The position numbers and the translations under genes were made by a program. A model generated the notes under the pieces. That model had not been told where the DNA came from, made no database searches, and was given only the letters and a program-made list of their open reading frames with translations. A stretch of DNA of 64,000 nt from Kaiparowitsia implicata GSE-PSE-MK54-09C (GTDB taxonomy: Bacteria; Cyanobacteriota; Cyanobacteriia; Elainellales; Elainellaceae), in the NCBI GenBank assembly GCA_019359435.1, contig JAHHHI010000055.1, forward strand, positions 248,001 through 312,000, given 5' to 3'. Positions 16,248 to 49,225 of the stretch are shown here, in pieces (the first letter of the stretch is position 1; each line of letters starts with the position of its first letter).

Positions 16248-16385
16248 GGGGATGGGGATTAGAGGGCGAAAGTAAGGGAGGTCGAGGTTGGGGAGTCAGG
16301 CAGGAATCGGGGGTGCGGTTGTGGGAACTGTGGAGGACGCTAGTGTGACCTAGAACGTTGAAACAGTCCTCTCTATAGCGGCTAC

Positions 16386-18061: not shown

Positions 18062-18211
18062 AGGCGAGGTCCTACGCAATGAACACAAATCTGAGCGAGC
18101 AGCCGCAATCGCGGCAACTCCAACAACCCTTAGAGAATGACTGGGCGAATAATTGGACGAATAACTGAGTGGATAGACCCGCTATCCGCTCAGTCATTTG
18201 CATCTTCGGAG

Positions 18212-19417: not shown

Positions 19418-19800
19418 AGGGATGCCTCTAAAAATTGATAAAAACTGGGACTGCATGAACGGTCAACAAAGCCCACATCGGACCGCGCCACACTCTAGGC
19501 GCTCTCGATCGCTTCATGCCGACGCCGTGGCAGCACACAGCCGTCATCCATACGCTGATGCAGGCTGCCCGCTCAGGTCGCCACAGGCGGCAACAGATTG
19601 GAACGACAGAGCATTAGCGCATCCAGCGTCCATGGTTCAGTACACCACTGGAAGATTAAAAACTAGTTTGCCTTTCGGTAAAGAGAAAATTAAGCGAACA
19701 AAAAACAATCTGAAGGTGTTGGTTTTACCTGAGCCTCTAACGCTGGGAGAATGCCGAGGACAGGACGGTGCAACGAAATAAAAGGTCTGACCCTTAAGTG

Positions 19801-31187: not shown

Positions 31188-31256
31188 TCTCCGGTAGCCA
31201 TCGCGCTAATTTCAGCCTGACTTTTGCTTCGAGTTCTTTTCACGATTAAATCTCTC

Positions 31257-34968: not shown

Positions 34969-35012
34969 TAGTTGCGTTGCGTTAGCCCTGATCTGCGGCG
35001 GCTGAAGCAACA

Positions 35013-35069
35013 TACCCCTGTTCTGCCCGCGTCGCAGGCAGAACGGGGGTATGGCGTTGAACTGACGTT
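35013..35069. repeat. Palindrome P4 with adjoining half copy of the 48-bp element (copy F)
   Basis: P4 (35013-35051) has 15-base arms TACCCCTGTTCTGCC and GGCAGAACGGGGGTA with one mismatch around a CGCGTCGCA core. Eight bases further on lies GAACTGACGTT (35059-35069), the outer end of the 48-bp element. The matching left end is not recognisable. Confidence 0.6.
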
Positions 35070-35077
35070 CTGCAAGA

Positions 35078-35326
35078 TTAGTCGCTGCAGACGTAAACTG
35101 CTTGGCCATCCGCCTCAACGCGCCGACAGCGACGATTCATGCCGCGTGCACCCACCAGTTGGCTAAAGGCTTCCCCGTCAATGTTGGCGAGTTCAACCGC
35201 TTTGCCAAACGGCAGCATTTCTTGGGCATAAAGGGCGATCGCCAGCTCCTTGAGCAACTCCGGTTCAACTCGACTTTCGGGCAACCGGATTGACTGTATT
35301 ACCGCATCTGGAATGGTCAACTGCAT
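35078..35326 (-). CDS. UPF0175 family small protein (antitoxin-like)
   Basis: About 82 residues from the ATG at 35326 (MQLTIPDAVIQSIRLPESRVE), or three more from a GTG at 35335. The first 65 residues match UPF0175 as I know it: IPDAVIQSIRLPE, ELLKELAIALYAQEMLPFGKAVELANIDGEAF split over two helices, and a QLVGARGM helix-turn. UPF0175 proteins are usually paired with a DUF3368 PIN-domain toxin. None is adjacent here. The C-terminus (NRRCRRVEADGQAVYVCSD) departs from the usual acidic tail and may be altered by the repeat-rich sequence downstream. Confidence 0.75.
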   Translation of the reverse strand: MQLTIPDAVIQSIRLPESRVEPELLKELAIALYAQEMLPFGKAVELANIDGEAFSQLVGARGMNRRCRRVEADGQAVYVCSD

Positions 35327-35455
35327 AACGGGCACCTCACATCAACGCAAGCGCAAGTAATAGACACGTTCATTCAATAGTTCCGCATTCCGATTCTGAT
35401 TCAGTGGATTTGTAACGCAAACTTAACAAATGCGAGTTCGAGCGACCCGATGTCA

Positions 35456-35935
35456 CTAGGGACACGATTCTCCCACAGGCCGCAGGCGCGTCGCCTTTAG
35501 GTTGAACTCCCCCAGCCCGCCGCCCCCAAAGGCGGTGACGCGCAAGATATATTCGCCGGTTTCGGGAATGCGGGTAAACAGTTGAGAATTAGTAGTGCCA
35601 TCGGGGCCGTCGTCGTTTTGTCCGATGGTGGTGCCGCTGCGGGTCATCAAGGTGATGATGGTGTCGAACTGATCAGACGCGAGGTCAATCACCACTTGCT
35701 CGCCAGCCTCAAGGCTAACCACATAGTCGCGAGCAAACCCCCCATCTCCGGTGGGAATATCGGCCTCGGTGAGGCTGTCGGTTGCTTCATAGCTGGGCGG
35801 CATGGGGACGGGGATGTAGATGGGCGATCGCTGCGCTTGGGCTGGCAACGTCCACAAACTGGCGGCCAGAGACACCGCTGGAAGCAGCGGCCACAAACCG
35901 AAGCGCGAGCACATAAACTGAGGCAACTGAGGCAT
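35456..35935 (-). CDS. Secreted PPC-domain (pre-peptidase C-terminal) protein
   Basis: This 159-residue protein has a signal peptide (hydrophobic LWPLLPAVSLAASLW, cleavage after PAQAQ) and a single bacterial pre-peptidase C-terminal domain: DYVVSLEAGEQVVIDLASDQFDTIITL, GTTIGQNDDG, and GEYILRVTAFGGGGLGEFNL. PPC domains are beta-sandwiches usually attached to secreted proteases; free-standing copies are common in cyanobacteria and have no known activity. It is expected in the periplasm or outside the cell. A Cys near the end (GESCP) is unpaired. Confidence 0.85.
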   Translation of the reverse strand: MPQLPQFMCSRFGLWPLLPAVSLAASLWTLPAQAQRSPIYIPVPMPPSYEATDSLTEADIPTGDGGFARDYVVSLEAGEQVVIDLASDQFDTIITLMTRSGTTIGQNDDGPDGTTNSQLFTRIPETGEYILRVTAFGGGGLGEFNLKATRLRPVGESCP

Positions 35936-36341
35936 AAATGTCTAATTCCGTCGGCAGAGTAGAATTCCGTTTATTATGCCCCACCAAGAGAAGGTTCTTG
36001 CGCCTTTAGCAAGGAGCCTGGGCAACCCTCCCCGGCTGCTTGCGAGGCGGCTGAGCGTATCCCTGATCCCTATGGGTGGCCTATGGGTGGATATTAGGGC
36101 GATCGCCCTAATATTGAGAAGATCCACTGCTGTCATTGCTTTGGCGCACTATATCCCCAGATCCGGGCAGGCAGTTGGCAGGCTGAGGAAAACTACGTTG
36201 CGTCATTTTCCAGTGTAGAACTGGGCCGAGTCATGGGCAAAACAAAGACACGGCAATGAACAAGGCAGGGCAATTCAATGATTTCCCTTGACGATCTGGC
36301 CCTGCTCCCTACAATGAAGGTGTCGAGTAAAGATTTGTAAA
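35936..36341. other. Intergenic region upstream of the HLIP gene, with palindrome
   Basis: No gene is credible. It contains an 11-bp tandem duplication CCTATGGGTGG (36069-36090), directly followed by a perfect 24-bp palindrome (36091-36114) centred on a HIP1 octamer, with flanks ATATTAGG and CCTAATAT. The promoter of the HLIP gene must lie in the last 200 bp; I could not place a convincing RpaB (HLR1) site. Confidence 0.55.
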
Positions 36342-36518
36342 ATGACTTCAACGCCTCCTCAACCTACGACTACGCCCAACATCGATCGCCCTAAGTTCGG
36401 CTTTAATGACTATGCAGAACGGCTTAACGGTCGCGCTGCCATGATGGGGTTTGTGATTACGCTCGCAATCGAATATGTTACAGGCCAAGGGTTGCTGTCT
36501 TGGCTAGGGCTGTATTAA
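36342..36518 (+). CDS. High-light-inducible protein (HLIP/Scp)
   Basis: A 58-residue protein with one chlorophyll-a/b-binding-like helix. After a Thr/Pro-rich N-terminus comes PKFGFNDYAERLNGRAAMMG, which includes the HLIP core ERLNGRAAMMGF (residues 26-37) with the Glu-Asn-Arg residues that pair and ligate chlorophyll, followed by a hydrophobic helix and the tail GLLSWLGLY. HLIPs sit in the thylakoid membrane, bind chlorophyll and carotenoid, and protect photosystem II assembly under high light or stress. The ATG at 36342 is preceded by AAAGATTTGTAAA, a poor ribosome site. Too short for a standard 60-residue ORF cutoff. Confidence 0.95.
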   Translation: MTSTPPQPTTTPNIDRPKFGFNDYAERLNGRAAMMGFVITLAIEYVTGQGLLSWLGLY

Positions 36519-36681
36519 AGGGGTTTGCGATAGCAAATCGCCTTTGTAGGGATGTCCCTCAAGACTGAACATCAACCAGTCAGCAATCCAGACAGTGTAA
36601 ATGCTTGGTAACATCTGCAGCGATGACGGTTAAGTTAGCACCTAGCCGTTCTATCCTGCCTGCATAGATAATCTGTTTAAT

Positions 36682-36718
36682 AGCGAGAGGCATGCTCCCC
36701 GAGAGCATGCCTCTCGCT
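36682..36718. repeat. Perfect 16-bp hairpin
   Basis: AGCGAGAGGCATGCTC, five-base loop CCCGA, then the exact complement GAGCATGCCTCTCGCT. There is no T run, so it is not a clear terminator of the HLIP gene 164 bp upstream. Confidence 0.85.
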
Positions 36719-36765
36719 GTTGATGGAGCATAGGATGGCATCCAACAATGTTGCTGATGGTATTT

Positions 36766-36889
36766 AACGTCAGTTCGGGTTAAGAGGGTTTTGGGGCATC
36801 GCGCGACGCGCGATGCCCCAAAACCCTTAATGTGCCGTGCGCGTCGCGCACGGCACATTAAGGGTTTGAGCTTATCCCGAACTCAGGTT
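36766..36889 (+). repeat. 48-bp palindromic element, copy B, expanded by two internal palindromes
   Basis: Ends AACGTCAGTTCGGGTTAAG and CTTATCCCGAACTCAGGTT form an imperfect inverted repeat and match copies C and D. The centre is expanded to 124 bp by two perfect 41-bp palindromes, 36786-36826 (centre A at 36806) and 36824-36864 (centre T at 36844), which share the bases CCC. Their cores are CGCGCGACGCGCG and GCGCGTCGCGC. Confidence 0.85.
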
Positions 36890-36914
36890 ATTTAGGAGGT
36901 GATAAAGACTTACA

Positions 36915-36948
36915 AGGCCAACATTAGCGGGTGGGCTAATGTTGGCCT
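36915..36948. repeat. Perfect 14-bp hairpin
   Basis: AGGCCAACATTAGC, six-base loop GGGTGG, then GCTAATGTTGGCCT. It follows copy B by 25 bp. Confidence 0.85.
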
Positions 36949-37171
36949 GAATCGCAGAGGCGGGTTAAGGAATTTGTCGATGATTAGAATGGATGACATC
37001 GACGGCATTAACGGTTGCTCGTTCGCGCTCAAGAGTTGGCGGCGCGATTCATTGAGTAGGGCGATCGCTCAAACATATCACCCCCCAAACTCAACCTATT
37101 TCGCCATGAATTCAACGAACAGGGAGAGCAACACACCGATGTGGCGTCATGTTTTAAGGTCGCGTTGCAAC

Positions 37172-37220
37172 GAATGATGGTGTAAAGCAAGGGCACAACT
37201 CTCGCTTTACACCATCATTC
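37172..37220. repeat. Perfect 17-bp hairpin
   Basis: GAATGATGGTGTAAAGC (37172-37188), a 15-base loop, then GCTTTACACCATCATTC (37204-37220). No T run follows. Confidence 0.85.
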
Positions 37221-37397
37221 CCCACCTAGTCCTACCCGATCGTTCCCTGTTCTTGGATTTGAAATCGTAGAACGTACTAGGGGAGGTGGCACAGTAAAAA
37301 ACTGTTGAAGACTAAAATACGCAATGATGAATTGCTGCTCTTCTGTTTTTTCACTGGGCTGAGAGCAGAATTACGCCACAGTGTTGAATGTCAAATC

Positions 37398-37925
37398 ATG
37401 AAAAAATTAGTTCGTAAAACAGTTTTAGCGACTTGCTTAATGGCCCCGCTGGTCGCTTTGGCTGCCTGCTCCCAGCCTCAAGTCCCAACAGCAGAATCTG
37501 ATAACTCTTCGGCTGAGGCGGCAGCAGAGAGTCCAGACGCAACGGTAGCTCAGACCCCAGACGGGGATGGAATGACCAGCGAAGCAGGGCAAAGTTTCAC
37601 GCCTTTATTTAGCCATATTTGGCGGGTTGACGACGCCACCAATGAATCTGCACCGGGAAGCATTTTCATCTTTGTGGCGAATGGCACGCTGCTGCAAACC
37701 TCATGTGTCGAAACCTACGGCATCTATGGATGGTCGGTTGACAAAGATGCGCCGAACCGTCTCAATGTGGAAGAAAATGGGCAATTGGCCTACACTGCCG
37801 ATATTCGAGAGCTGACCAACGAAACCCTAGAACTTGAGTTGAACCTGGTACTCAGCAATGAAATCAAGGAAATGACTCTTTCAGCGGTGGAAGAGGAATT
37901 TGTGTGTCCTGATTTGCCAAGATGA
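37398..37925 (+). CDS. Putative lipoprotein of unknown function
   Basis: About 175 residues from the ATG at 37398 (MKKLVRKTVLATCLMAPLV); a frame from 37305 adds an implausible N-terminus. The lipobox ALAAC gives a lipid-anchored mature protein beginning CSQPQVP, followed by an acidic Ser/Ala linker to about residue 55. The globular part begins GQSFTPLFSHIWRVDD and continues IFIFVANGTLLQTSC, VETYGIYGWSV and VEENGQLAYTADIREL. This strand-rich pattern recalls small beta-barrel lipoproteins of the META/lipocalin kind, but I cannot assign a family. Two Cys in the mature domain (in LQTSC and EFVCPDL) might form a disulfide. Confidence 0.75.
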   Translation: MKKLVRKTVLATCLMAPLVALAACSQPQVPTAESDNSSAEAAAESPDATVAQTPDGDGMTSEAGQSFTPLFSHIWRVDDATNESAPGSIFIFVANGTLLQTSCVETYGIYGWSVDKDAPNRLNVEENGQLAYTADIRELTNETLELELNLVLSNEIKEMTLSAVEEEFVCPDLPR

Positions 37926-38049
37926 GCAAGGCTAATAGCAGGTGTGATCAGTCATCTCTAGGGTTTTGTGGGCGTTGCTAAATCCTGGTATGAACCCACT
38001 CGATCTGCCCTCACCCTAGCCCTCGCCTAAAGAGCTACATTTTACAGAT

Positions 38050-38097
38050 AACGCCAGTTCGGGTTAAGCGGGCTTTGGCTTATCCCGAACTCGGGTT
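38050..38097 (+). repeat. 48-bp palindromic element, copy C
   Basis: AACGCCAGTTCGGGTTAAG at the left and CTTATCCCGAACTCGGGTT at the right, with a short GC-rich centre. It is the same length as copy D and differs from it at a few positions. Confidence 0.85.
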
Positions 38098-38126
38098 ACA
38101 TAAGTACTGAAACCCTTACTGCTCGA

Positions 38127-38191
38127 CTTGACCCTCATCCCCCAACTCCTTCCCGTTCTGGGAGAGGAGCATTGAGGGGGTGAGGGTCAAG
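38127..38191. repeat. CCCTCATCCCC-type inverted repeat
   Basis: Outer arms CTTGACCCTCATCCCCC and GGGGGTGAGGGTCAAG are near-exact complements, enclosing a smaller CTCCT/AGGAG stem around CCCGTTCTGGGAG. Repeats of this kind are widespread between cyanobacterial genes. Confidence 0.8.
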
Positions 38192-38428
38192 CTGTGTATA
38201 AGCAGTAGCCTAAAGAGCGAAGGGACAGAATTTCCGGTGGGTGAATCCCGCTTTTATATCCCTGATCCTAAGTCTGTCTCCCAGAACGAACTATCCATTA
38301 GGTAGATCTTGCGGAAACCCTCATTCCTACGTTCAAAAACGGGAAAGTTGGGCGACTGTGGCGATACCGTAGGGGCAACGGTTGTTTGCTTAATGCAGAG
38401 CCGTTCTTTTTGAGAACTGGCCTAGGCG

Positions 38429-39439
38429 CTAGTCCGTCAACTCTTTGATTAGCGAGTCGTCGATGAGCGACGTGGCATCAACGGGGGCAGAGATTTTGCC
38501 CAAGTCGAAGAGGGTTTCGGAGGCTGATTCTAGGCTGGTCAGCAGGTAGAGCGAGCTATCGGGATTAAACGGCTCAGCCCGATTGCCTTCAATGTCAAAG
38601 GGTTTGATGCCGGCCAACTGCTCGGGGATTTCGTCAGGTGCGACACCCAAGTTTTGAGCGCTGATTTCAGCCGCCGCCTCGGGGTTGGCCGCGGCAAACT
38701 CTAGTGCGGCGTCGATCGCCCGCAGATAGGCTAGGATATCCTCCCGGCGAGACTCAATCACTTCGGCGCGGGTTGCCAGCACGATGGGCACCACGTTCGT
38801 ATCCTTAGTCGTGAAGAGGATTTCAGTTTCACCATCGGCGGTGGCGGCGCTGAGCCAGGGTTCATAGGTGGTGGCGGCATCGACTTGCCCAGCGGCGATC
38901 GCCGCTACAGCATCACTGGCGGAGAGGGGCAGCACCTCCACATCATCTTCGGTCAGCCCACCCTGCTTTAGATATTCACCCAGAAAAATGATGGCGTAGG
39001 GTGCATCTTCGCGGGCTACGCGCTTGCCCCGCATGTCTTCGGGGCTAGCGATGCCGCGCCCAATCACGCCATCGGCCCCATCCGAATAGTCAGACACCAT
39101 AATAATTTTGAGGGAAGGAGCTTGGCTCACCAGCGTGAGCAGGTCAGGGCCGCCGATCCAGGCTAAATCGACTCGCCCGGCGGCGAGGGCGGTGTTGGTG
39201 TCGGTCGCCACCTGAAAAAGCTCTTCTTCAACCGAAATGCCCTCTGGGGTAAATAAGTCTTGGGCTTGAGCAATGTAGTGCCCTTGAAATCCAATCCAGG
39301 GTTGCACGGCAACGACCAGAGGGGTATCGGCGGCAGCACCGCCAAGTTGCCGGGGGCTGCACGCGGCTATAGCTATCGACACGAAGCACCCGGAGAGAAA
39401 CCAGGCTATGAGTTTAATGAGCGATCGCCGATTCATCAT
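38429..39439 (-). CDS. NitT/TauT-type ABC substrate-binding lipoprotein
   Basis: The 336-residue protein has a lipoprotein signal ending IAIAAC, followed by the NMT1/SsuA-like fold: VAVQPWIGFQGHYIAQAQDLF, EELFQVATDTNTALAAGRVD, DLAWIGGPDLLTLV, MRGKRVAREDAPYAIIFLGE and AATTYEPWLSAATADG. The start codons ATG-ATG at 39439 follow a strong GGAGAAGGG. Family members bind nitrate, taurine, sulfonates, thiamine precursors, bicarbonate or guanidine. It is the last of three minus-strand genes after a ureohydrolase and a metallo-hydrolase. The matching ATPase and permease are at 42528 and 43523 on the other strand. The ligand is inferred to be a guanidino compound. Confidence 0.88.
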   Translation of the reverse strand: MMNRRSLIKLIAWFLSGCFVSIAIAACSPRQLGGAAADTPLVVAVQPWIGFQGHYIAQAQDLFTPEGISVEEELFQVATDTNTALAAGRVDLAWIGGPDLLTLVSQAPSLKIIMVSDYSDGADGVIGRGIASPEDMRGKRVAREDAPYAIIFLGEYLKQGGLTEDDVEVLPLSASDAVAAIAAGQVDAATTYEPWLSAATADGETEILFTTKDTNVVPIVLATRAEVIESRREDILAYLRAIDAALEFAAANPEAAAEISAQNLGVAPDEIPEQLAGIKPFDIEGNRAEPFNPDSSLYLLTSLESASETLFDLGKISAPVDATSLIDDSLIKELTD

Positions 39440-39537
39440 CCCTTCTCCAAAATTGGGTCAATTGATTACGGTTGAGTCACGGGTGTGAGCTTTTACACTG
39501 CAACGGGCTCAATCTCTGGGGGAGTGCCACCGCGGCG

Positions 39538-40338
39538 TTAGGACGGGAGCGAGAATTCTCCCATCCGGGCGCGAGACAGGTCAGATGGGCAGCCGGGTCG
39601 GCGCTTAGCCTCCAGATATTCGAGGATGATTTCGCCATAGCGCTGTCGGCTCACAATGGAATAGTGCCCTGGATAGACCGTCTCTATCGCGAGCTGACGC
39701 AATCGCTCGAAGGTGGCGCAGTAGGTTGGCACATGGCTGCAATGTAGCTGATCGAGCAGTTCGCCATCGTAAATGACATCGCCGGAAAATAGCTCCTGCG
39801 CTTGAGGGTCGTAAAGCGCGATGCAGCCCGGCGAGTGCCCCGGCAGGTGCATTACTTCAAAGGCGCGATCGCCCAAATCCAGCACATCCCCTTCGTTCAA
39901 AATCTGAGTGGGTTCTGCGGCGCGCAGGGTATAGCGCTCTACGGCGAAGCCCTCATAGGGCAGGCAGGCAAACTGGTCTTGCGCCACCCAACCCTGGTCG
40001 GGCGTGCAGAGCGCTTCGTAGTCATCCCCGGTGCGCAACGCAGAGGCTTCGGCGGCGTGAATGGCGCGATGGTCGAACTCGTGCATGCCTCCGGCGTGAT
40101 CAAAGTGAACATGGGAGGCGATCGCCAGCAATGGTTTATCGATCAACCCCGCAATATGCTGCCGCAGGCTAGAAACCCCCAGCCCGGTATCAATCAGCAA
40201 ATCTTGGTCGCGCCCTTTAATGAGCCAGAGGTTGGCCCGGTTAAACCAGTAGTAGTGGGGTTCGGTAATTAGATAGAGGCGATCGCTAATGCGCTCAGTC
40301 GAAAACCAGCGATCACACACAGAGATAGACTGCGGCAT
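39538..40338 (-). CDS. Metallo-beta-lactamase-fold hydrolase
   Basis: The 266-residue protein has the dinuclear-metal motif HVHFDH (H76, H78, D80, H81), a second His in LPGHSPGC, the bridging Asp in LFSGDVIYDGE and the last His in YPGHYSIV, so all MBL ligands are present. The fold covers glyoxalase II, lactonases, ring-opening amidohydrolases and others, so the reaction is open. It begins 14 bp after the ureohydrolase stop, which strongly suggests cotranscription and a shared pathway, perhaps acting on the product of guanidino hydrolysis or on a lactam. Substrate unknown. Confidence 0.85.
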   Translation of the reverse strand: MPQSISVCDRWFSTERISDRLYLITEPHYYWFNRANLWLIKGRDQDLLIDTGLGVSSLRQHIAGLIDKPLLAIASHVHFDHAGGMHEFDHRAIHAAEASALRTGDDYEALCTPDQGWVAQDQFACLPYEGFAVERYTLRAAEPTQILNEGDVLDLGDRAFEVMHLPGHSPGCIALYDPQAQELFSGDVIYDGELLDQLHCSHVPTYCATFERLRQLAIETVYPGHYSIVSRQRYGEIILEYLEAKRRPGCPSDLSRARMGEFSLPS

Positions 40339-40352
40339 TGTGCGTCACCCTC

Positions 40353-41342
40353 CTAAACCAAACTAATGTGATGGGGGGCGATCGCCAGCGCTGCTTCAGG
40401 GTGCTGCCGTCGCCATGCCACCATGGATAGAAACTCGTAACCCACTTGGGCCGCCAGTTGGGCCGTAATCTGTGCCGAGTCATGGGCGGGCAGCACTTCT
40501 ACCACATCTGCCCCAACCCAATCCAGCCCCGCACAGGCGCGTAGATAGGCCAAGCCTTGGGCGCTCGTAGGCCCACCGACTTCGGGGGTGCCGGTTCCGG
40601 GTGCAAAGGCCGGATCAAAAAAGTCCACATCAAAGGATAGGAACACCTTGGCAGTGCCCACGCGATCGCGCACCAGTTGCCCGAGCTCATCTGGGGTATA
40701 GGTCAGCAGTTCTGTCGTAGACAGCGCCAAAAACCCCAACTGCTGCGAGAGCTGCACATCGTCTTCATCGTAGACCGGCCCGCGCATTCCCAGTTGAATC
40801 GAGTGGTCGGGCCGCAGCAAGCCCTCTTCTAAAGCGCGCCGAAAGGGCGTGCCGTGGGTATATTTTTGACCAAAGTAGCTGTCCCACAGGTCACAATGGG
40901 CATCAAAATGCACCAGCGCCAGCGGCCCATGCACCGCTGCCAGCGCTCGCAGTTCCCCCAGGGTAATGCTGTGATCGCCGCCAATGCTAAGGGGAATAAT
41001 GCCCGCTTCTGCCAGCGGCTGCAGCGTGCGGGCGATCGCCCCATAGCTCTCATGAATGAACCCCGGCACTACGGGCGCATCGCCATAGTCAATGCACGAC
41101 AGCGTTTCAAACACATTGACCTTAAGTTCGCGGTTGTAGGGGCGCAGAATGGCCGAGGCGCTGCGAACCGCCTCTGGCCCAAACCGTGCCCCCACCTTAT
41201 AGGTAACGCCCGTATCGAACGGCAACCCAACGACGGCCACATCCACCTCTTCGGCCGTTTGCACATAAGGCAACCGAGCAAAGGTGCGAATGCCGCTGAA
41301 CCGGGGTGACTCCAACGAATTAGCAGGTTGATATCGAGGCAC
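40353..41342 (-). CDS. speB: Agmatinase-family ureohydrolase
   Basis: The 329-residue enzyme (GTG start at 41342 after GGTGAG) has all six dinuclear-metal ligands of the arginase/agmatinase superfamily: H124 in GGDHS, D147, H149 and D151 in FDAHCDLWD, and D238 and D240 in SFDVDFFDP, followed by PGTGTPEVGG. The family cleaves a guanidinium group to urea plus an amine: agmatine, guanidinobutyrate, guanidinopropionate, or guanidine itself in the Ni-dependent cyanobacterial enzyme. The symbol reflects family, not proven substrate. Linkage to a NitT/TauT importer and an AsnC-type regulator argues for catabolism of an imported guanidino compound rather than polyamine synthesis. Confidence 0.9.
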   Translation of the reverse strand: MPRYQPANSLESPRFSGIRTFARLPYVQTAEEVDVAVVGLPFDTGVTYKVGARFGPEAVRSASAILRPYNRELKVNVFETLSCIDYGDAPVVPGFIHESYGAIARTLQPLAEAGIIPLSIGGDHSITLGELRALAAVHGPLALVHFDAHCDLWDSYFGQKYTHGTPFRRALEEGLLRPDHSIQLGMRGPVYDEDDVQLSQQLGFLALSTTELLTYTPDELGQLVRDRVGTAKVFLSFDVDFFDPAFAPGTGTPEVGGPTSAQGLAYLRACAGLDWVGADVVEVLPAHDSAQITAQLAAQVGYEFLSMVAWRRQHPEAALAIAPHHISLV

Positions 41343-41410
41343 AATCTCACCCGTCTAAAGGACGCAACGCCAAACTAAGATGACCCTACCACAGTAAAGA
41401 GAAGCGCAAA

Positions 41411-41450
41411 TTCAAAAAGTTTCTGATGCTACAAAATTAAACTTGTTGAA
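41411..41450. promoter_or_regulatory. Candidate operator of the Lrp/AsnC regulator
   Basis: TTCAAAAAGTTT (41411-41422) and AAACTTGTTGAA (41439-41450) are inverted complements with one mismatch, 16 bases apart. They lie in the AT-rich centre of the divergent promoter region between the ureohydrolase and regulator genes. Lrp/AsnC proteins commonly bind such palindromes. This is inferred from position and symmetry only. Confidence 0.5.
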
Positions 41451-41515
41451 TTTTGCTGCTGTTTTCGCAAATAATAGGGGATATTTATTGAGGATTCACG
41501 AAGAGAGGAAACGCG

Positions 41516-41989
41516 GTGGCAGGCACACAGGTATCGGACGAGGTGGCGATTGATGACATTGATCAATCCCTGATTAATCTGTTGCGAGAAGACGGGCGCA
41601 TGGCCTTTACGGATATGGCCAAGCAGCTTTCTATCCCAGAATCGACGGTGCGCTATCGGGTGCAGCGGCTCTTGCAGGCCGATGTGATTCAAATTCACGC
41701 TCGGCTCAACCCCAAAAAATTCGCCATGCCCCACATTGTCACCATGCGGTTTAATGTAGAGCGATCGCACATCGACGCAGTGGCAGAAGCGCTGGCGCAG
41801 TTGTCTGAGGTGCAATTTGTGGCGATCGTCACCGGGCATTACAACATTATTATGGATGCCTGCTTTGGCACCCACGAAGACCTGCTGCGCCTGTTTGAAA
41901 CCATCCATGCTATTCCGGGCATCATTCACTATGACTCGTGCACGGCTCTCAAACTGCTCAAATCTGAGTATCAATACACGGTGGGATAG
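41516..41989 (+). CDS. Lrp/AsnC family transcriptional regulator
   Basis: The 157-residue protein starts at a GTG preceded by AGAGAGG. An N-terminal winged helix-turn-helix (about 13-62: IDDIDQSLINLLREDGR, FTDMAKQLSIPESTVRYRVQRL) precedes the RAM ligand-binding domain (IVTMRFNVERSHIDAVAEAL, VAIVTGHYNIIMDACF, HEDLLRLFETIHAIPGI). It is divergent from the ureohydrolase operon and upstream of the ATPase and permease. Members sense amino acids or related small molecules. Here it probably controls both arms of the locus in response to the imported substrate or its product. Confidence 0.93.
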   Translation: MAGTQVSDEVAIDDIDQSLINLLREDGRMAFTDMAKQLSIPESTVRYRVQRLLQADVIQIHARLNPKKFAMPHIVTMRFNVERSHIDAVAEALAQLSEVQFVAIVTGHYNIIMDACFGTHEDLLRLFETIHAIPGIIHYDSCTALKLLKSEYQYTVG

Positions 41990-42527
41990 TTTTGGGTAGT
42001 GGGATTCATACCCTGAATATCCCCCACGCCACTATCCACAGTAGGAGAGTCCTGCATTGAAGAAGAGGGCGATCAGCCCCACGATGCTTCTCGCAATGCT
42101 GCCCACGAGACTTGAGGGTTGACCCGCAATTCCCAAGACGCGGCATAACGTGCGTCAGGCCCGTCTGTTTTTAGCGTGCTCTTAATGAATTCGGGATGGT
42201 TCAAGACAATGTTCATCAGAGCGTAAACAACGAGTGATAAACCTGTGTATCGGGCAAGGCATCACCCCATGATTTCGTAACAGACACAACATTCAACCCC
42301 GAGTCTATCCGCTTAGCTAAACTAAACCGCTCGGCGGATTACGGGAATGCTGAATCTATGGATTCGCTCATGGCATTGGGTGCTGGTCTGCTGGCGGAAT
42401 GCCTCTACCGAAGTCAACGCAACCATGAGAAGCCGCCTGACCCATCTTGAATTTAGCTAAGCTCTTGGTTTGATACTGGATCGTCTAAGCCTGCCCCGTT
42501 TGCGAATGCACCCGTTGAGAATGCATC
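41990..42527. other. Intergenic region with possible small minus-strand frames
   Basis: Over 500 bp between the regulator and the ATPase gene. I looked for the guanidine-I riboswitch core (GGGTTCCG-like) and did not find it. Two short minus-strand frames joined by a TGATG stop-start are described separately. A plus-strand frame ending at about 42450 (ESMDSLMALGAGLLAE) has no proper start. Confidence 0.45.
42073..42216 (-). CDS. Possible small protein or gene remnant
   Basis: A 47-codon frame starts MNIVLNHPEFIKSTLKTDG and ends NPQVSWAALREASWG. Its ATG overlaps the stop of another short open frame upstream on the same strand (ending DTQVYHSLFTL), as TGATG. Both translations look protein-like, so this may be a coupled pair of small genes or the frameshifted tail of a decayed gene. 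No family is recognised and no ribosome site is strong. Confidence 0.3.
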   Translation of the reverse strand: MNIVLNHPEFIKSTLKTDGPDARYAASWELRVNPQVSWAALREASWG

Positions 42528-43355
42528 ATGCCTCAGCCTGATTCAGCGCCATTGAGTTTTATGCCATCGGCTTCTGAGCCGCTTTCTGCAGTGCATCCAC
42601 CCAAACTAGCGGTGCAGGCTGTGGGCAAAACCTATGTCACCCGAGGCAAGCCGCTGGTGGTGCTAGACGAGATTAGCTTTGAGCTAGCCGCGCGGGAGTT
42701 TGTGTGCCTCGTGGGCGCATCGGGCTGTGGCAAATCGACGCTGTTGAATATTGTGGCCGGGCTGGTGCCGCCCACCACGGGTGAAGTGCAGGTGGATGGG
42801 ATGGCGGTGCTGGGGCCAGGGGCTGACCGGGGGATGGTGTTTCAAGGCTATACGCTTTATCCCTGGCTGACGGTGGCGCAGAATATCGCCTTTGGGATGC
42901 AGTTGCGGAAGCTGCCCAAGGCTGAGCAGCGCGATCGCACGGCCTATTATCTCAACGTGGTGGGGCTGACGGCGTTTGCTCAGGCCTATCCCAAACAGCT
43001 CTCGGGCGGAATGAAGCAGCGGGTGGCGATCGCCCGCGCTCTTGCCAATGAACCCGAAGTGCTCTTGATGGACGAACCCTTTGGCGCGCTCGACGCCCAA
43101 ACCAAAGAGCAAATGCAGCAGTTTTTGCTAAACCTGTGGGCGCAAACCCACACCACCGTATTGATGATCACCCACGACGTGGAAGAGGCCATTTTTCTGT
43201 CGCAACGGGTGTATGTGATGGGTAGCCATCCGGGTCGGCTGACGCACCAGGTGTCTGTGCCGTTGCCCGCTGCCCGCGATCTCGACATCAAGCTATCGCC
43301 CGACTTTATCGCCGTTAAACGGGAGGTGCTGCATGCCCTGCGCCAAGAGCATTAG
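42528..43355 (+). CDS. NitT/TauT-type ABC transporter ATP-binding protein
   Basis: The 275-residue ATPase has Walker A GASGCGKSTL, Q-loop VFQGYTLYPWLTV, signature LSGGMKQRVAIA, Walker B VLLMDEPFGALD and the His switch TVLMITHDVEEA, with the C-terminal YVMGSHPGRL typical of SsuB/TauB/NrtD relatives. A permease of the same class follows. With the lipoprotein at 38429 this makes a complete importer split over two divergent units around the AsnC-type regulator. Substrate is inferred from the ureohydrolase. Confidence 0.92.
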   Translation: MPQPDSAPLSFMPSASEPLSAVHPPKLAVQAVGKTYVTRGKPLVVLDEISFELAAREFVCLVGASGCGKSTLLNIVAGLVPPTTGEVQVDGMAVLGPGADRGMVFQGYTLYPWLTVAQNIAFGMQLRKLPKAEQRDRTAYYLNVVGLTAFAQAYPKQLSGGMKQRVAIARALANEPEVLLMDEPFGALDAQTKEQMQQFLLNLWAQTHTTVLMITHDVEEAIFLSQRVYVMGSHPGRLTHQVSVPLPAARDLDIKLSPDFIAVKREVLHALRQEH

Positions 43356-43477
43356 GGCTAATTGAGTATCAGCTAGCCCATGTAGATCTCTGTAAAGCAA
43401 TTGATGTTGAAGAGGATGTTTGAAGATGCTGGGGTGGAAGATGCGTTGCCTTTTGCAGAACGCGATAATGCAGTTTG

Positions 43478-43520
43478 TTGGTCTTTTTAGAGCATTGATT
43501 GGTCTTTTTTGGAGCATTGA
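43478..43520 (+). repeat. Tandem duplication just before the permease gene
   Basis: Two copies of TTGGTCTTTTTAGAGCATTGA (21 and 22 bases, one with an extra T and a G/A change) abut at 43478-43498 and 43499-43520. The second supplies the GGAGCATTGAGG leader of the permease. Confidence 0.8.
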
Positions 43521-43522
43521 GG

Positions 43523-44380
43523 ATGATTCAGCCTAGCCTGTCGCAATCGGCGATCGCCCCATCTACCCCGCGCCGCTATCTCAAGCCCTCGGTCTTTTGG
43601 AGCATTCGTCAAGGGTTTCCCCGCTGGCTGTCGCTGCTGCTGATTGGGGTGTCGCTGGCGATTCCGCTCGTGCTGTGGTCGGTGGTGAGCTATGGCGGAT
43701 GGGTGCCGCCGCTGTTTTTGCCGACGCCCACGCGGGTGCTGCAGGCGGGTTGGCAAATGCTAACGCGTGAGAATCTGCTGTGGGATGTGTGGGTGAGCTG
43801 CGGTCGGGTGGCGGGGGGCTTTGCCTTGGCGGCGATCGTGGGGGTGGCGATGGGCATTGCAATGGGCACCTTCCACAGTATGGAGAGCGTGTTTGCGCCG
43901 ATTGTGGGCACGGTGCGCTATATGCCGGTGATGTCGTTTGTGCCGCTAATTGTGATCTGGGTGGGCATTGGCGAAGATGCAAAGGTGCTAATTATTTTTT
44001 TGGGTGTGGTGCTCTATAACGCTGTGATGGTGGCGGATGCGGTGAAGTTCATCCCCAATGACATGATCAATGTGGCCTATACGCTGGGGGGCGATCGCCG
44101 CGATGTGCTATTTCGGGTGATTTTGCCGGCTACGTTCCCCAGCATTCTCGATACCCTGCGGGTGAATGTGTCGGGCGCGTGGAACTATTTGGTGATTGCT
44201 GAACTAGTGGCCGCCAAGAGTGGGCTGGGGTTCAAGATCATCCAATCGCAGCGCTATCTGCAAACCGACAAGGTGCTGTTTTGCATTGCGCTGATTGGGC
44301 TAATTGGGCTGCTGATCGACTATGGGCTAAAGGCGCTGTCGCGAGCGCTCACGCCCTGGGCCGACCAAACGCGACAGTAG
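43523..44380 (+). CDS. NitT/TauT-type ABC transporter permease
   Basis: About 285 residues from the ATG at 43523 (MIQPSLSQSAIAPSTPRRY). It has about six membrane segments and the EAA-type loop AYTLGGDRRDVLFRVILPAT contacting the ATPase, with the family-typical VGTVRYMPVMSFVPLIVIWVG split over one helix. The upstream leader is a 21-bp tandem duplication. Class membership (SsuC/TauC/NrtB) is firm; the imported ligand is inferred from the locus. Confidence 0.9.
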   Translation: MIQPSLSQSAIAPSTPRRYLKPSVFWSIRQGFPRWLSLLLIGVSLAIPLVLWSVVSYGGWVPPLFLPTPTRVLQAGWQMLTRENLLWDVWVSCGRVAGGFALAAIVGVAMGIAMGTFHSMESVFAPIVGTVRYMPVMSFVPLIVIWVGIGEDAKVLIIFLGVVLYNAVMVADAVKFIPNDMINVAYTLGGDRRDVLFRVILPATFPSILDTLRVNVSGAWNYLVIAELVAAKSGLGFKIIQSQRYLQTDKVLFCIALIGLIGLLIDYGLKALSRALTPWADQTRQ

Positions 44381-44387
44381 CGTGCAT

Positions 44388-45233
44388 TTAGGGTTTGCGA
44401 AGGGGGCGGCGGCGAGTCAAAATGCCTTGCCGAGGGCTAAACAACAGCGCCAGCATAAAAAACGCAAAGGAGGTGAGGGCGATCGCCGGGCCTGAGGGCA
44501 CATCCAAGTAGTAGCTAATATACATGCCGCCTAGCGAAGAAATCACCCCCAATAAGGCCCCGAGCAGCATCATGCGATGTAGTTGCTTAACCAGCAAGTA
44601 GGCGGTTGTGGCTGGCCCCACCAGCAGCGCAATTACCAGCACCACGCCTACCGTCTGCATTCCCACAATGATGGTCATGGTGATGGCCGCCATCATGCCG
44701 TAGTAGATGGTGTGCACCGGCAAACCAGCCGCTTCGGCAGCGGCAGGGTCAAAGGTATAGAACAGCAATTCTTTATAAAACAGCTTGACCAGCAGCAGCA
44801 GCAGCAGTGTCACCCAGAGCGATCGCCCCACATCAGCCCGAGACACGCTGAGGATATCGCCAAACAAAATCGCCATGAGATCAAGGCGACTGCCCAGTAC
44901 TCGCAGCAGCAGCACTCCCAGCGAAAAGAACGACGAAAACGTGAGCGCCATGGCGGCATCGACCTTAACGCGGGTTTGGGTGCGAATCCACGCGATCAAA
45001 ACCGTGCTGAAAATGCCCGACACAAACGAACCCAGCAAAATATTGAAGCGAAGAAAGTTGGCGATCGCCAACCCCGGCAGCACCGCATGGGCAATCACAT
45101 CCCCCAACAACGCCATGCGCTGCACGATCAGATAGCTGCCCACAATGGGACACAGAACGCCCACCAGAAGACCCACGGCTAGCGCATTCCGCATGAATTG
45201 ATAACCGAGAGGTTCGAGCAGCCAGTCCAACAT
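44388..45233 (-). CDS. znuB: Zinc/manganese ABC transporter permease (ABC-3 family)
   Basis: The 281-residue protein has about eight hydrophobic segments and family motifs QFMRNALAVGLLVG, YLIVQRMALLGDVIAHAVLPG and GMQTVGVVLVIALLVGPATT. It forms the membrane channel for divalent metal uptake with the ATPase at 45398 and the binding protein at 46218. Zinc is favoured over manganese because of the His-rich binding protein and the Zur-box-like site in the divergent promoter. It is the second gene of the minus-strand unit, 164 bp after the ATPase. Confidence 0.88.
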   Translation of the reverse strand: MLDWLLEPLGYQFMRNALAVGLLVGVLCPIVGSYLIVQRMALLGDVIAHAVLPGLAIANFLRFNILLGSFVSGIFSTVLIAWIRTQTRVKVDAAMALTFSSFFSLGVLLLRVLGSRLDLMAILFGDILSVSRADVGRSLWVTLLLLLLVKLFYKELLFYTFDPAAAEAAGLPVHTIYYGMMAAITMTIIVGMQTVGVVLVIALLVGPATTAYLLVKQLHRMMLLGALLGVISSLGGMYISYYLDVPSGPAIALTSFAFFMLALLFSPRQGILTRRRPLRKP

Positions 45234-45288
45234 AATGCAGAGTTAGTGCAGGGTCTTGCAAACGCAGGCAAATAGTCAGACTGAGAGA

Positions 45289-45381
45289 TTACTGTCCAAC
45301 TTCGAGGGTCAAAATCCCAAATGGAACTGGGCTTTGCAGGCGCAGTTCAGCCTCGTGCCCACAGTCATTGCTGACCAGCAT
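45289..45381 (-). CDS. Possible very small protein between znuC and znuB
   Basis: A 30-codon frame MLVSNDCGHEAELRLQ... ending FGILTLEVGQ fills the unusually long gap between the two transporter genes. The frame stays open upstream into the end of the ATPase gene (…ADFYDGT before the ATG), so the start is uncertain. The translation is balanced and contains CGH, but no family is recognised and no ribosome site is visible. It may be chance. Confidence 0.25.
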   Translation of the reverse strand: MLVSNDCGHEAELRLQSPVPFGILTLEVGQ

Positions 45382-45397
45382 CGTTCCATCATAAAAA

Positions 45398-46141
45398 TCA
45401 GCAGAAAAACGGCATTTCAGCAGGCCGCTCGCTGGGCTGCAAATTTTCGCCATAGGCTCGCTGAATATTATCCAGCGTCATCACCTGTTGCGGGTCGCCA
45501 TCGGCCACTAACCGCTGATTGAGCAGCAGCAGTCGATCATAGCGATTGAGCGCCTGCCCCCACTCGTGGCTGCACACGAGCACAGTTTTATCGTGGGCTT
45601 TGAGTTCGGCGAGCAGGTCAAGAATCACCGCCTCGGTGGTTTTATCGATGGCGTTGAAGGGTTCATCAAAAAAGAAAAGGTCAGCGTCTTGGGCGATCGC
45701 CCGGGCCAAAAATACCCGCTGCTGCTGCCCCCCCGAGAGTTCACCAATCTGGCGATCGCGCAGATCCCAAACGCCGAGCCGCTGCATGGCCGCCTCGACC
45801 GCCTGGCGCGACCGGGGATTGGGCGATCGCAGCCAGCCCGTCCTCACCGTCCGCGCCATCATCACCACATTCCACGCCGTCACCGGATAATCCCAGTCAA
45901 TTTGCGATCGCTGCGGCACATAGGCAACCCGCTGCCGCTGGTGAACGAGCGGACGCTCCTCAAACAACACCTGACCGGCATGCATCGCGACCAACCCCAG
46001 CAGCGCCTTAAGCAGGGTGCTTTTGCCAGCGCCATTCGGGCCAATCAGCCCCACCAGTTCCCCAGCATGAATCGCTAGGGAAACGCTGTTGAGCGCCTCT
46101 GTCCCCCGGTAATTGACAGATAGGTTGTGAACCTTTAGCAT
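45398..46141 (-). CDS. znuC: Zinc/manganese ABC transporter ATP-binding protein
   Basis: About 247 residues from the ATG at 46141 (MLKVHNLSVNYRGTEAL). Walker A is GPNGAGKSTLL, the signature is LSGGQQQRVFLARA, Walker B is LFFFDEPFNAID and the switch His is in VLVCSHEWGQAL. VPQRSQIDWDYPVTAWNVVMM is the Q-loop region typical of metal-type (ZnuC/MntA) ATPases. It is the first gene of the minus-strand unit and shares a 76-bp promoter region with the divergent binding-protein gene. Confidence 0.9.
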   Translation of the reverse strand: MLKVHNLSVNYRGTEALNSVSLAIHAGELVGLIGPNGAGKSTLLKALLGLVAMHAGQVLFEERPLVHQRQRVAYVPQRSQIDWDYPVTAWNVVMMARTVRTGWLRSPNPRSRQAVEAAMQRLGVWDLRDRQIGELSGGQQQRVFLARAIAQDADLFFFDEPFNAIDKTTEAVILDLLAELKAHDKTVLVCSHEWGQALNRYDRLLLLNQRLVADGDPQQVMTLDNIQRAYGENLQPSERPAEMPFFC

Positions 46142-46158
46142 AGCAACCTGGATAGAAA

Positions 46159-46173
46159 TGATAACCGTTCTCA
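46159..46173. promoter_or_regulatory. Zur-box-like operator
   Basis: TGATAACCGTTCTCA is an imperfect 7-1-7 palindrome of the Fur/Zur type, with A/T flanks. It lies between the divergent znuC and znuA starts, where a zinc repressor would control both. The match to the TGATAAT-N-ATTATCA form is partial; regulation is inferred. Confidence 0.65.
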
Positions 46174-46217
46174 ATATCTATCACAATAAACGAGTATATC
46201 AGAGAGGTTCCTCCGCC

Positions 46218-47423
46218 ATGCAGTTTCACCTGTCACGCCAACGCTTTTGGCAAAGTGCCTTTATGGCGATCGCCCTAGGGTTAGCCGCGTGCAGCCCCTC
46301 GCCCCAGTCCCAAACCCCGACCAATGCCGCCGATGACATGGCCACCGCCGATGCCCCCAGCGTTGTCGCGACGTCTGCGCTGCTGTGCGACTTGGCAACC
46401 CAAATTGCACAAGATGCGATTAACCTCACCTGCTTGGTTGAGCCTGGCGTCGATCCGCATGTGTATCAGCCAACGCCCACCGATCGACGGGCGATCGAAG
46501 ACGCACAGCTCGTGCTCTATTTCGGGTATAACTACGAATCTGGATTGGAGCAAATGATCGCCGCCACTGAAAATGACGCTCCCAAAATTGCTGTGTCTGA
46601 AGTCGCGGTGCCCAATCCGCTGATGGGAGACCCCCACGATCACGATCATGTCCATGATGACGACCACGGCCAAAGCCATGCCGACGATCATGGACATGAC
46701 GGTGATCACGCGGATGACCACGGCCATAGCCATGGCGCTGATGACAACGATCATGCGGAGGAGGATGGTCATAATCATGCGTCTGATGACCATGACCATG
46801 GCGGTGATCATGCGCATGACGACGATCACGGCCATAGCGCTGCCTCGAGTGAGCTAGAGCCTGACCCCCATGTGTGGCAAGATCCACAGAATGGGGCGCG
46901 CATGGTCACTGTGATTGGCAATGAAATTGCCGCCCTAGTGCCTGATCAGGCGGATGTCATTACGGAACGAGGAGAGGCGATCGCCGCTGACTTAACCCAG
47001 CTTGACGACTGGATCCGCCAGCAAGTGGCGACTATTCCCGCTAACTCGCGCAAGTTGGTGACGCCCCACGACTCGTTCCAATACTTTGCTGATGCCTATG
47101 ATGTGGAAGTCGCTGGCACCATCGAAGGCTTGAGCACTGAGGCCCAACCCTCGGCCACTCGTATGGCAGAACTGGTGGACTTGGTAAAAGAGGCAAATGT
47201 GCCTGCTGTGTTTAGCGAGCAAACCACCAATAAGCAGTTAATTGAAGCGCTGGCGGAAGATGCTGGTGTAGAGGTGGCCGATCGCCCGCTGTTTGCTGAA
47301 GGGCCAGGGGATGCGAGTTCTCCTGCGCCGACCTACCAGGCCATGTTTGTGAGCAATACCTGCACCATTGTGAATGCCCTGGGTGGCACCTGTAATGAAG
47401 GGTCTGCGCCTGTAGGTTCGTGA
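46218..47423 (+). CDS. znuA: Zinc ABC transporter substrate-binding lipoprotein with long His/Asp loop
   Basis: About 401 residues from the ATG at 46218. The signal ends in lipobox GLAAC, anchoring it in the membrane. It is a cluster A-I metal-binding protein: first His in EPGVDPHVYQPTPTD, then DPHVWQDPQNG, VTPHDSFQYFADAY and a late acidic site. Between about residues 139 and 209 there is a loop with 21 His and many Asp in DDHGH-like units, typical of ZnuA but at the long end. The loop may capture Zn2+ and pass it to the high-affinity site. The last third, EQTTNKQLIEALAEDAGV, is family-typical. Confidence 0.93.
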   Translation: MQFHLSRQRFWQSAFMAIALGLAACSPSPQSQTPTNAADDMATADAPSVVATSALLCDLATQIAQDAINLTCLVEPGVDPHVYQPTPTDRRAIEDAQLVLYFGYNYESGLEQMIAATENDAPKIAVSEVAVPNPLMGDPHDHDHVHDDDHGQSHADDHGHDGDHADDHGHSHGADDNDHAEEDGHNHASDDHDHGGDHAHDDDHGHSAASSELEPDPHVWQDPQNGARMVTVIGNEIAALVPDQADVITERGEAIAADLTQLDDWIRQQVATIPANSRKLVTPHDSFQYFADAYDVEVAGTIEGLSTEAQPSATRMAELVDLVKEANVPAVFSEQTTNKQLIEALAEDAGVEVADRPLFAEGPGDASSPAPTYQAMFVSNTCTIVNALGGTCNEGSAPVGS

Positions 47424-47779
47424 GGGTTTGAGGCTTAGAGGCTGGGGCTCTTCAAGCCTGGGACTCAGAGACTGGGGCTCAGAGTTGAGGCTCGACCGTC
47501 TGCGCTAACCGCTAACTCTATAGCGAACGTCAGTTCGGCTAATTCCTAAACCCGTGCTGCTCGCGTCGCGAGCAGCACGGGTGGGCTGGCTTTTAATTCA
47601 GATTTTAATTCAGACAAGTTGCTGACCTATTTTTGTTGTCTATGTAACAGTTCCTGTCGAACCTGTGCTTTGAGCTACCACTTCCTGCCTTAATAAAGGG
47701 CTATATAGCGAATAGCTCCGTGTAAATGCTGAGACTCGACCCAGTCGCTACTCATTGCCATTATGGTTAGGGGGAATCT
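47424..47779. other. Intergenic region with half element and palindrome
   Basis: Between znuA and the GltS-type gene. It contains an irregular repeat of GAGACTGGGGCTCA-like units (about 47444-47490), a half copy of the 48-bp element (47526-47538) and palindrome P3. No gene. Confidence 0.55.
47526..47581 (+). repeat. Half 48-bp element (copy E) with palindrome P3
   Basis: AACGTCAGTTCGG (47526-47538) is the left end of the 48-bp element. It is followed by P3 (47551-47581), a perfect 31-bp palindrome with arms CCCGTGCTGCTCGCG and CGCGAGCAGCACGGG around a central T. Confidence 0.75.
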
Positions 47780-49225
47780 GTGTTTAACTTACGAACTGCT
47801 CTATTTGCCTTCGTGCTGCTGGCGCTGCTGTTGCTAGTAGGGCGATTCCTTAAGCATAAAATTCGATTATTTCAACGACTATATTTGCCTGCGTCGATTT
47901 TGGCAGGCGCAGTAGGGCTATTGCTGGGGCCTCAGGTGCTCGGGGCGATCGCCACAGCCATTGCCGGAGAAGACACGCTGTTAGCAGGTGGGGTGTTCAC
48001 CGAGGACATCCGCACGGTATGGTCGCAAGCGCCGGGGGTGTTCATCAATATTGTGTTTGCGGGGTTGTTTCTAGGCGAGACTATTCCGCCCCCGCGGGAT
48101 ATTTGGCGACGGGCTGCTCCGCAGGTGGTGTTTGGTCAAACCCTGGCTTGGGGACAATATGTTGTCGGTATTTTGGCGACGCTGCTGGTGTTGGGGCCGC
48201 TGTTTGGGGTCAACCCCATCGCTGCTTGCCTCATCGAAATTGGGTTTGAAGGCGGACATGGTACCGCGGGCGGCATGGCCGAAACGCTCACGGAGCTGGG
48301 CTATGCCGATGGCGGTGACTTGGCAATAGGCTTGGCAACGGTGGGGATTGTGTCGGGTATTATCCTTGGGACGGCGCTGGCTGATTGGGGACGGCGGAAG
48401 GGCCATGTGGGGATGATGAATCGAGCGGTGATTGAACCCGAAGAAATCCCAGATTTGAATGTGATGGCAGAAACACCAGAGATTCGGCGGCAGCGGGCGC
48501 GCTTGCTGCGCAATCTGCTGATCGATCCGCTGTCAATCAATTTCGCCATTGTCGGGATGGCGATCGCCATTGGTTGGCTGATTTTATCAGCGCTGCAATG
48601 GATAGAATCTGTCACTTGGGGCGGTGAGGGCGGCTTTGCTGTGCTGCAGTTTGTGCCGCTGTTCCCCATGGCGCTGATTGGGGGCATTATCACCCAGTCC
48701 ATCTTGAATCGGCTGGGGCTGAGCGCGTTGATCATTCGCTCGATGGTGCAAAATATTGCGGGTGTGGCGCTGGATGTCGTAGTGGCGGCGGCGATCGCCT
48801 CCATCTCACTTCAGGTCATTGGGGGCAACCTGGCCGTGTTCCTGATCCTGAGCGTGGTCGGCATCTTGTGGAATGTGCTGATCTTCCTCTGGTGGGCTCC
48901 GCGCATCTTTCCGACCTCGTGGTTTGAAAAAGGGCTGGGCGATTTCGGCCAGTCAATGGGCGTGACCGCCACAGGCATTTTGCTGCTGCGGATGGTAGAC
49001 CCTGACAATAGCACGGGAGCCTTTGAAGGCTTTGCCTATAAGCAGCTGTTCTTTGAACCAATCGTGGGTGGGGGCTTATTTACCGCTGCTGCGCCTGCAT
49101 TGGTAGTGCGTCTGGGGCTGATGCCTGTGTTGGCCATTACCGGCGGTCTGTTGATTTTTTGGATAGCGGCAGGCTTTTTCCTCATTCGGCAAGATCGCCA
49201 GCGCCCCACCGCAACGCCGGTATGA
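47780..49225 (+). CDS. gltS: GltS-type sodium/glutamate symporter
   Basis: The 481-residue membrane protein starts at a GTG preceded by AGGGGGAATCT. It has about ten to twelve hydrophobic segments and the glycine-rich re-entrant motif IGFEGGHGTAGGMAETL (around residue 155), with a second GDFGQSMGVTATGILLLRM near residue 390, as in Na+-coupled glutamate carriers of the ESS/GltS family. In Synechocystis a GltS protein carries out glutamate uptake; substrate here is by analogy. It is longer than the E. coli protein, with a hydrophilic middle loop (EPEEIPDLNVMAETPEI). A strong terminator follows. Confidence 0.85.
   Translation: MFNLRTALFAFVLLALLLLVGRFLKHKIRLFQRLYLPASILAGAVGLLLGPQVLGAIATAIAGEDTLLAGGVFTEDIRTVWSQAPGVFINIVFAGLFLGETIPPPRDIWRRAAPQVVFGQTLAWGQYVVGILATLLVLGPLFGVNPIAACLIEIGFEGGHGTAGGMAETLTELGYADGGDLAIGLATVGIVSGIILGTALADWGRRKGHVGMMNRAVIEPEEIPDLNVMAETPEIRRQRARLLRNLLIDPLSINFAIVGMAIAIGWLILSALQWIESVTWGGEGGFAVLQFVPLFPMALIGGIITQSILNRLGLSALIIRSMVQNIAGVALDVVVAAAIASISLQVIGGNLAVFLILSVVGILWNVLIFLWWAPRIFPTSWFEKGLGDFGQSMGVTATGILLLRMVDPDNSTGAFEGFAYKQLFFEPIVGGGLFTAAAPALVVRLGLMPVLAITGGLLIFWIAAGFFLIRQDRQRPTATPV

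Follow-up and report, generated by a model that had tools for sequence, protein, structure and literature searches.

The six genes at positions 38429-44380 of the window, by which we mean the whole 64-kb stretch of DNA analysed here, raise the question of which compound an importer, a ureohydrolase and a metallo-beta-lactamase-fold enzyme might handle together, and of how such a set relates to the guanidine locus of Synechocystis. All six open reading frames are intact and lie, in position, strand and spacing, as the original prediction had described them. On the reverse strand, a ureohydrolase gene (UH1; 40353-41342, 329 aa, GTG start; PF00491, 283 bits) is followed after a gap of 14 bp by the gene of a metallo-beta-lactamase-fold (MBL) hydrolase (39538-40338, 266 aa; PF00753) and, in third place, by that of a NitT/TauT-type (NMT1/SsuA) substrate-binding lipoprotein (SBP; 38429-39439; PF09084/PF13379). 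On the forward strand, an Lrp/AsnC-family regulator (41516-41989, 157 aa, GTG start; PF13404 and PF01037) is followed by the importer ATPase (42528-43355; PF00005) and permease (43523-44380; PF00528). The two groups diverge from a promoter region of 173 bp (41343-41515), and inspection of the intergenic stretches by eye brought out no obvious shared AsnC operator.

The genome that contains the window measures 6.7 Mb, and its named relatives in the collections are mostly Leptolyngbya-like. A genome of the same family, G005, repeats the order AsnC / UH1-MBL-SBP, again with AsnC divergent from UH1, with identities to the window proteins of 75% for AsnC, 82% for UH1, 81% for MBL and 58% for SBP, and in a further genome, G011, UH1 accompanies the importer; ureohydrolase, MBL and transporter thus co-occur elsewhere, a recurrence on which the original prediction had staked itself. 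The gene set is not a chance grouping, since in many cyanobacteria the genes for SBP, ATPase, permease and MBL are again found together.

Class of the ureohydrolase

The alignment retains all six metal ligands of UH1 (H124, D147, H149, D151, D238 and D240, in the H, DxHxD, DxD pattern), as had been claimed. Its nearest solved structures are the guanidinobutyrase GbuA (3nio) and the guanidinopropionase GpuA (3nip) of Pseudomonas aeruginosa, which share these ligands and are 43-44% identical to it. R67 of UH1 aligns with R72 of GbuA, a residue proposed to cap the substrate carboxylate, which it can reach across the subunit interface (PMC9772407). The SpeB and GdmH rows carry Ala, Thr or Glu at this position. 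Y156, in turn, is of the GpuA type, as it aligns with Y157 of GpuA and stands where GbuA has Met; according to Lee et al. in 2011, this position reportedly sorts guanidinopropionase from guanidinobutyrase substrates. Unlike the Pseudomonas enzymes, UH1 is set among an importer, an MBL enzyme and an AsnC regulator, and its activity is a predicted one.

In the phylogeny, which had been proposed as a check, the UH1 proteins of four genomes (that of the window, G005, G008 and G011) form a clade (100/100) whose sister is an enzyme encoded on a Rubrobacter plasmid (98/99). The two together lie near GbuA and GpuA, yet as a separate clade, the deep forks being unsupported. UH1 falls outside the E. coli/Burkholderia SpeB clade and also outside the GdmH rows, which form a clade of their own (100/100); its identity to Synechocystis GdmH (7esr) is 31%. 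Judged by its sequence, UH1 is neither an agmatinase nor a Ni-dependent guanidine hydrolase, and clade and residues together point to an enzyme of the guanidino-acid hydrolase type, predicted to release urea. Agmatine, which the original prediction had listed among the substrates, is disfavoured by the position outside the SpeB clade and by the carboxylate-capping arginine.

The nearest relative outside the UH1 clade, that of Rubrobacter radiotolerans (NZ_CP007515; 55-57% identity), is encoded in an operon with a methylmalonate-semialdehyde dehydrogenase, an alanine dehydrogenase, an amino-acid permease and an aminotransferase of the aspartate-aminotransferase family (class III / omega-amino acid type). 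These genes would provide beta-alanine breakdown, the steps expected after hydrolysis of 3-guanidinopropionate. In contrast to the window locus, the operon includes PucR regulators and has neither an MBL gene nor an ABC importer.

The importer and MBL module

An NMT1/SsuA binding protein with a lipobox-like IAAC, a TauB/NrtD-type ATPase and a TauC/SsuC-type permease place the importer in the NitT/TauT family. The SBP scores just under the cut-off of TIGR01728, and the best NCBIfam matches of the ATPase (SaoA/TauB/NrtD) and of the permease (TauC/SaoP) are likewise under theirs; with every substrate-specific equivalog below its cut-off, the profiles therefore assign no ligand. The MBL enzyme carries the motif HVHFDH at residue 76 (the HxHxDH set), and residues H76, H78, D80, H81, H168, D187 and H225 are invariant in 19 orthologues. 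Orthologues with 66-80% identity, separated by a clean gap from other MBL proteins, occur in 20 of 60 relatives. Comparison with NCBIfam reached no specific subfamily, and an AlphaFold2 model (mean pLDDT 61.5) was too poor for a fold search.

Of 36 MBL loci drawn from GTDB, 19 have importer genes no more than 8 kb away, 18 have them directly adjacent and one has UH1; the importer-MBL loci of cyanobacteria are usually without a ureohydrolase. Other partners recur, namely type III glutamine synthetase-like ligases, Rieske oxygenases, biuret-hydrolase-like isochorismatases, desaturase-like proteins and creatininase-family proteins. Importer and MBL therefore constitute the core of the locus, and the ureohydrolase is an enzyme that can be exchanged for others on this conserved module. 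Orthologues of the ATPase (63-77% identical) stand beside MBL or UH genes in other genomes, and those of the permease (65-77%) lie within the same clusters. In loci L063, L065, L071 and L080 the gene of a desaturase-like membrane protein adjoins the importer-MBL genes, and no guanidine riboswitch was found there.

In several relatives this module is headed by a guanidine-I riboswitch. In L040, L041 and L053 the riboswitch precedes an ATPase-SBP-MBL operon; in L050 it is followed by GdmH, two small genes, ATPase, SBP and MBL; and in L054 an MBL pair diverges from a riboswitch accompanied by two urea-amidolyase-associated proteins and a urea/guanidine carboxylase. Against a background of about 56 matches in 60 genomes, 4 of 10 SBP orthologues have a riboswitch within 10 kb where 0.03 would be expected, a count that comes from few, partly related genomes and in which two of the four riboswitches are oppositely oriented. 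Gene order shows the origin of importer and MBL in a module which, in relatives, stands under guanidine-I riboswitches, beside a guanidine hydrolase or a guanidine carboxylase. This tie, together with the placement of UH1 among guanidino-acid hydrolases, supports the original prediction of a locus for uptake and breakdown of guanidino compounds. No prior report linking the MBL enzyme to guanidine metabolism or riboswitches was met in the open-licence literature. The riboswitch-led operons of L040 (7387-13771), L041 (7701-14424) and L053 also encode a type III glutamine synthetase-like ligase besides importer and MBL, and some of them a creatininase-family protein and an isochorismatase too.

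The Synechocystis locus (GdmH sll1077, HypA/HypB, importer sll1080-1082 and a guanidine-I riboswitch; PMC8390497, Funck 2022) likewise joins an enzyme of the ureohydrolase superfamily to an SsuA/NrtD-type importer, and the same riboswitch is carried in relatives by operons orthologous to the importer genes of the window. The window locus, however, has its ureohydrolase in a different clade, adds MBL and AsnC, and has neither riboswitch nor nickel chaperones, so that its description as related but distinct holds. Rfam searches at gathering and permissive thresholds found no guanidine riboswitch in the window, and a remnant in the divergent promoter was rejected even at the permissive threshold. 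HypA/HypB-like genes are missing from 35000-48000, as originally noted; the accompanying idea that MBL and AsnC had taken their place fails, since L040 and L050 hold MBL and importer together with GdmH and HypA/HypB-like genes, and the window genome keeps its own hydrolase-HypA-HypB locus elsewhere. There (L025, on C103), the gene of a ureohydrolase that matches Synechocystis GdmH with 806 bits is preceded by a guanidine-I riboswitch and followed by the HypA/HypB-like genes.

Ureohydrolases beside creatininases

A second subfamily, UH2, is 45-47% identical to UH1 and nearer to actinobacterial enzymes. In five genomes its gene directly follows that of a true creatininase (about 365 bits in TIGR04448, whose cut-off is 235), and in all four cases looked at a relative of the window AsnC (49-53% identity) lies upstream of the pair. 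Such AsnC-creatininase-ureohydrolase triplets are conserved in Leptolyngbya-like genomes lacking an M24 creatinase, at L093 7444-10360, L094 7407-10381, L096 7473-10332 and L097 4879-7604, and represent a candidate pathway from creatinine to sarcosine and urea. In L093 (1358-7028), L096 and L097 they are accompanied by a polyamine-type ABC importer and by amidohydrolases of the TRZ/ATZ-8-oxoguanine deaminase type, of which L093 has two.

Among 36 genomes of the family, nine carry a creatininase, ten a UH and six both (p=0.006), the pairs always lying within about 3.2 kb of each other. One of them involves UH1: in G011 it stands by the importer ATPase, another SBP and a true creatininase, all within 3.2 kb. 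The M24 creatinase, whose query finds its own kind in control plasmids, was not found in the creatininase-UH genomes searched, which comprised all except G010. The creatininase and M24 creatinase pathway likewise turns a guanidino acid into urea and an amino acid, but here a ureohydrolase occupies the place of the M24 enzyme. The same pairing extends to an alphaproteobacterium, as on a plasmid of Rhizobium sp. CIAT894 (L131 8022-9752) the gene immediately after a creatininase encodes a GpuA-like ureohydrolase, whereas Microvirga and Paracoccus plasmids have a creatininase with an M24 creatinase instead. No earlier link of creatininase with a guanidine riboswitch or with a ureohydrolase was met in the open-licence literature.

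Creatininase yields creatine, which is isomeric with 3-guanidinopropionate. For UH2, hydrolysis of creatine by a ureohydrolase-fold enzyme is a hypothesis to be taken seriously; for UH1 it is a possibility. Since the window genome has no true creatininase, the wider statement of a small guanidino acid is kept for UH1. The creatininase-family gene that this genome does carry (C81) was rejected as a creatininase, being MftE-like and scoring 113.8 bits against the cut-off of 235.

Proposed function and its alternatives

We consider the locus to be probably a nitrogen-scavenging system, in which a guanidine-uptake module has been re-aimed at a small guanidino acid, a compound rich in nitrogen and of the creatine kind, that would be split into urea and an amino acid. 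The NitT/TauT importer would bring in the compound, with 3-guanidinopropionate, creatine or guanidinoacetate as the most likely substrates, and the dinuclear, probably Mn-dependent UH1 would cleave its guanidino group. The urea would pass to urease, whose alpha gene is present elsewhere in the genome, and the divergent AsnC regulator probably senses substrate or product. The MBL enzyme, which looks like an intact hydrolase, may open or trim a cyclic or acylated guanidino compound. The reading is favoured by the position of UH1 next to the enzyme of the Rubrobacter beta-alanine operon, by R67 and Y156, by the riboswitch links of importer and MBL and their proximity in 19 of 36 loci, by the creatininase beside UH2, by the urease and by the separate GdmH-HypA-HypB-riboswitch locus. 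It also draws on the SBP tree, which unites the proteins of the four UH1 genomes and of G023 in a subclade (94/99) without riboswitch, distinct from the SBPs that are riboswitch-linked. It is chiefly because of this separate subclade, and of the window being without a riboswitch, that the importer looks as if it had been turned to a new ligand instead of continuing to carry free guanidine. Counting against this reading, UH1 adjoins MBL in two genomes only (that of the window and G005), stands apart from both importer and MBL in G008 and is not by MBL in G011, and G023 has an SBP of the subclade without UH1.

Importer and MBL could alternatively take up free guanidine and feed the distant GdmH, with UH1 as a neighbour acting on a separate substrate. 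No NitT/TauT importer adjoins the GdmH locus of the window genome, and the window importer could therefore still serve guanidine; the riboswitch-controlled orthologous operons, flanked by GdmH and HypA/HypB-sized genes in L040 and L050, argue in the same direction. We nevertheless regard this as improbable, in view of the riboswitch missing even at the permissive threshold, the SBP subclade common to all four UH1 genomes, the co-directional UH1, MBL and SBP genes with their 14-bp gap, and the importer ATPase beside UH1 in G011. Far less credible is that UH1 is an agmatinase or arginase of polyamine or arginine metabolism whose position here is incidental: it does pass the agmatinase model TIGR01230, at 213 bits against a cut-off of 174, but GdmH passes as well, with 175.7 bits, so that the model does not discriminate. 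Besides UH1 and GdmH, the third ureohydrolase of the genome is a separate SpeB-like enzyme (L026, on C83; 297 bits), and tree and R67 put UH1 with the guanidino-acid hydrolases.

Overlapping with the small guanidino acid reading is the proposal that UH1 is itself a creatine amidinohydrolase, a stand-in for M24 creatinase that would yield sarcosine and urea from creatine obtained by ABC import. The creatininases next to UH2 and near UH1 and the importer in G011, their co-occurrence in six of 36 genomes, the M24 creatinase not found there by a search whose positive control worked, and the alphaproteobacterial pair all speak for it. We hold it to be unlikely for the window enzyme, as its genome has the MftE-like protein only, UH1 and UH2 have diverged to 43-46% identity, and in G005 the two occupy separate loci, which suggests different substrates; in addition, classical ureohydrolase substrates present a secondary, not N-methylated, guanidine nitrogen. 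Similarly doubtful is the broader combination in which the UH group would be a second, non-homologous creatinase converting creatine to sarcosine and urea and the MBL enzyme, at the same time, a new hydrolase of guanidino assimilation used with guanidine hydrolase, guanidine carboxylase or UH.

The small guanidino acid reading points to a route by which cyanobacteria would draw nitrogen from guanidino acids, in addition to the pathway for free guanidine. Two surprises emerge, both testable: MBL is tied to guanidine genes, and creatininases are paired with ureohydrolases. The former draws attention to a family of MBL-fold enzymes that keep company with guanidine genes under riboswitch control and to which the literature searched assigns no role. 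The latter suggests that, beside a creatininase, the part of creatinase may fall to a ureohydrolase; were this demonstrated, it would bring both a new enzyme of creatine breakdown and a testable meaning for many genes annotated 'agmatinase'.

Elsewhere in the window, a methylmalonate-semialdehyde dehydrogenase (33261-34733) was considered as a beta-alanine partner and set aside as uninformative, since 28 of 36 relatives have it. The permease is immediately followed by a zinc-importer-like ABC set (44388-47423), encoded on mixed strands, whose binding protein is rich in His and Asp. A complete ABC importer of the polyamine/iron type (binding protein, two permeases and ATPase) occupies 15066-19456, and an HdrB/SdhE-like protein, of the CoB-CoM heterodisulfide reductase subunit B type, is encoded in this cyanobacterium at 31224-32168.
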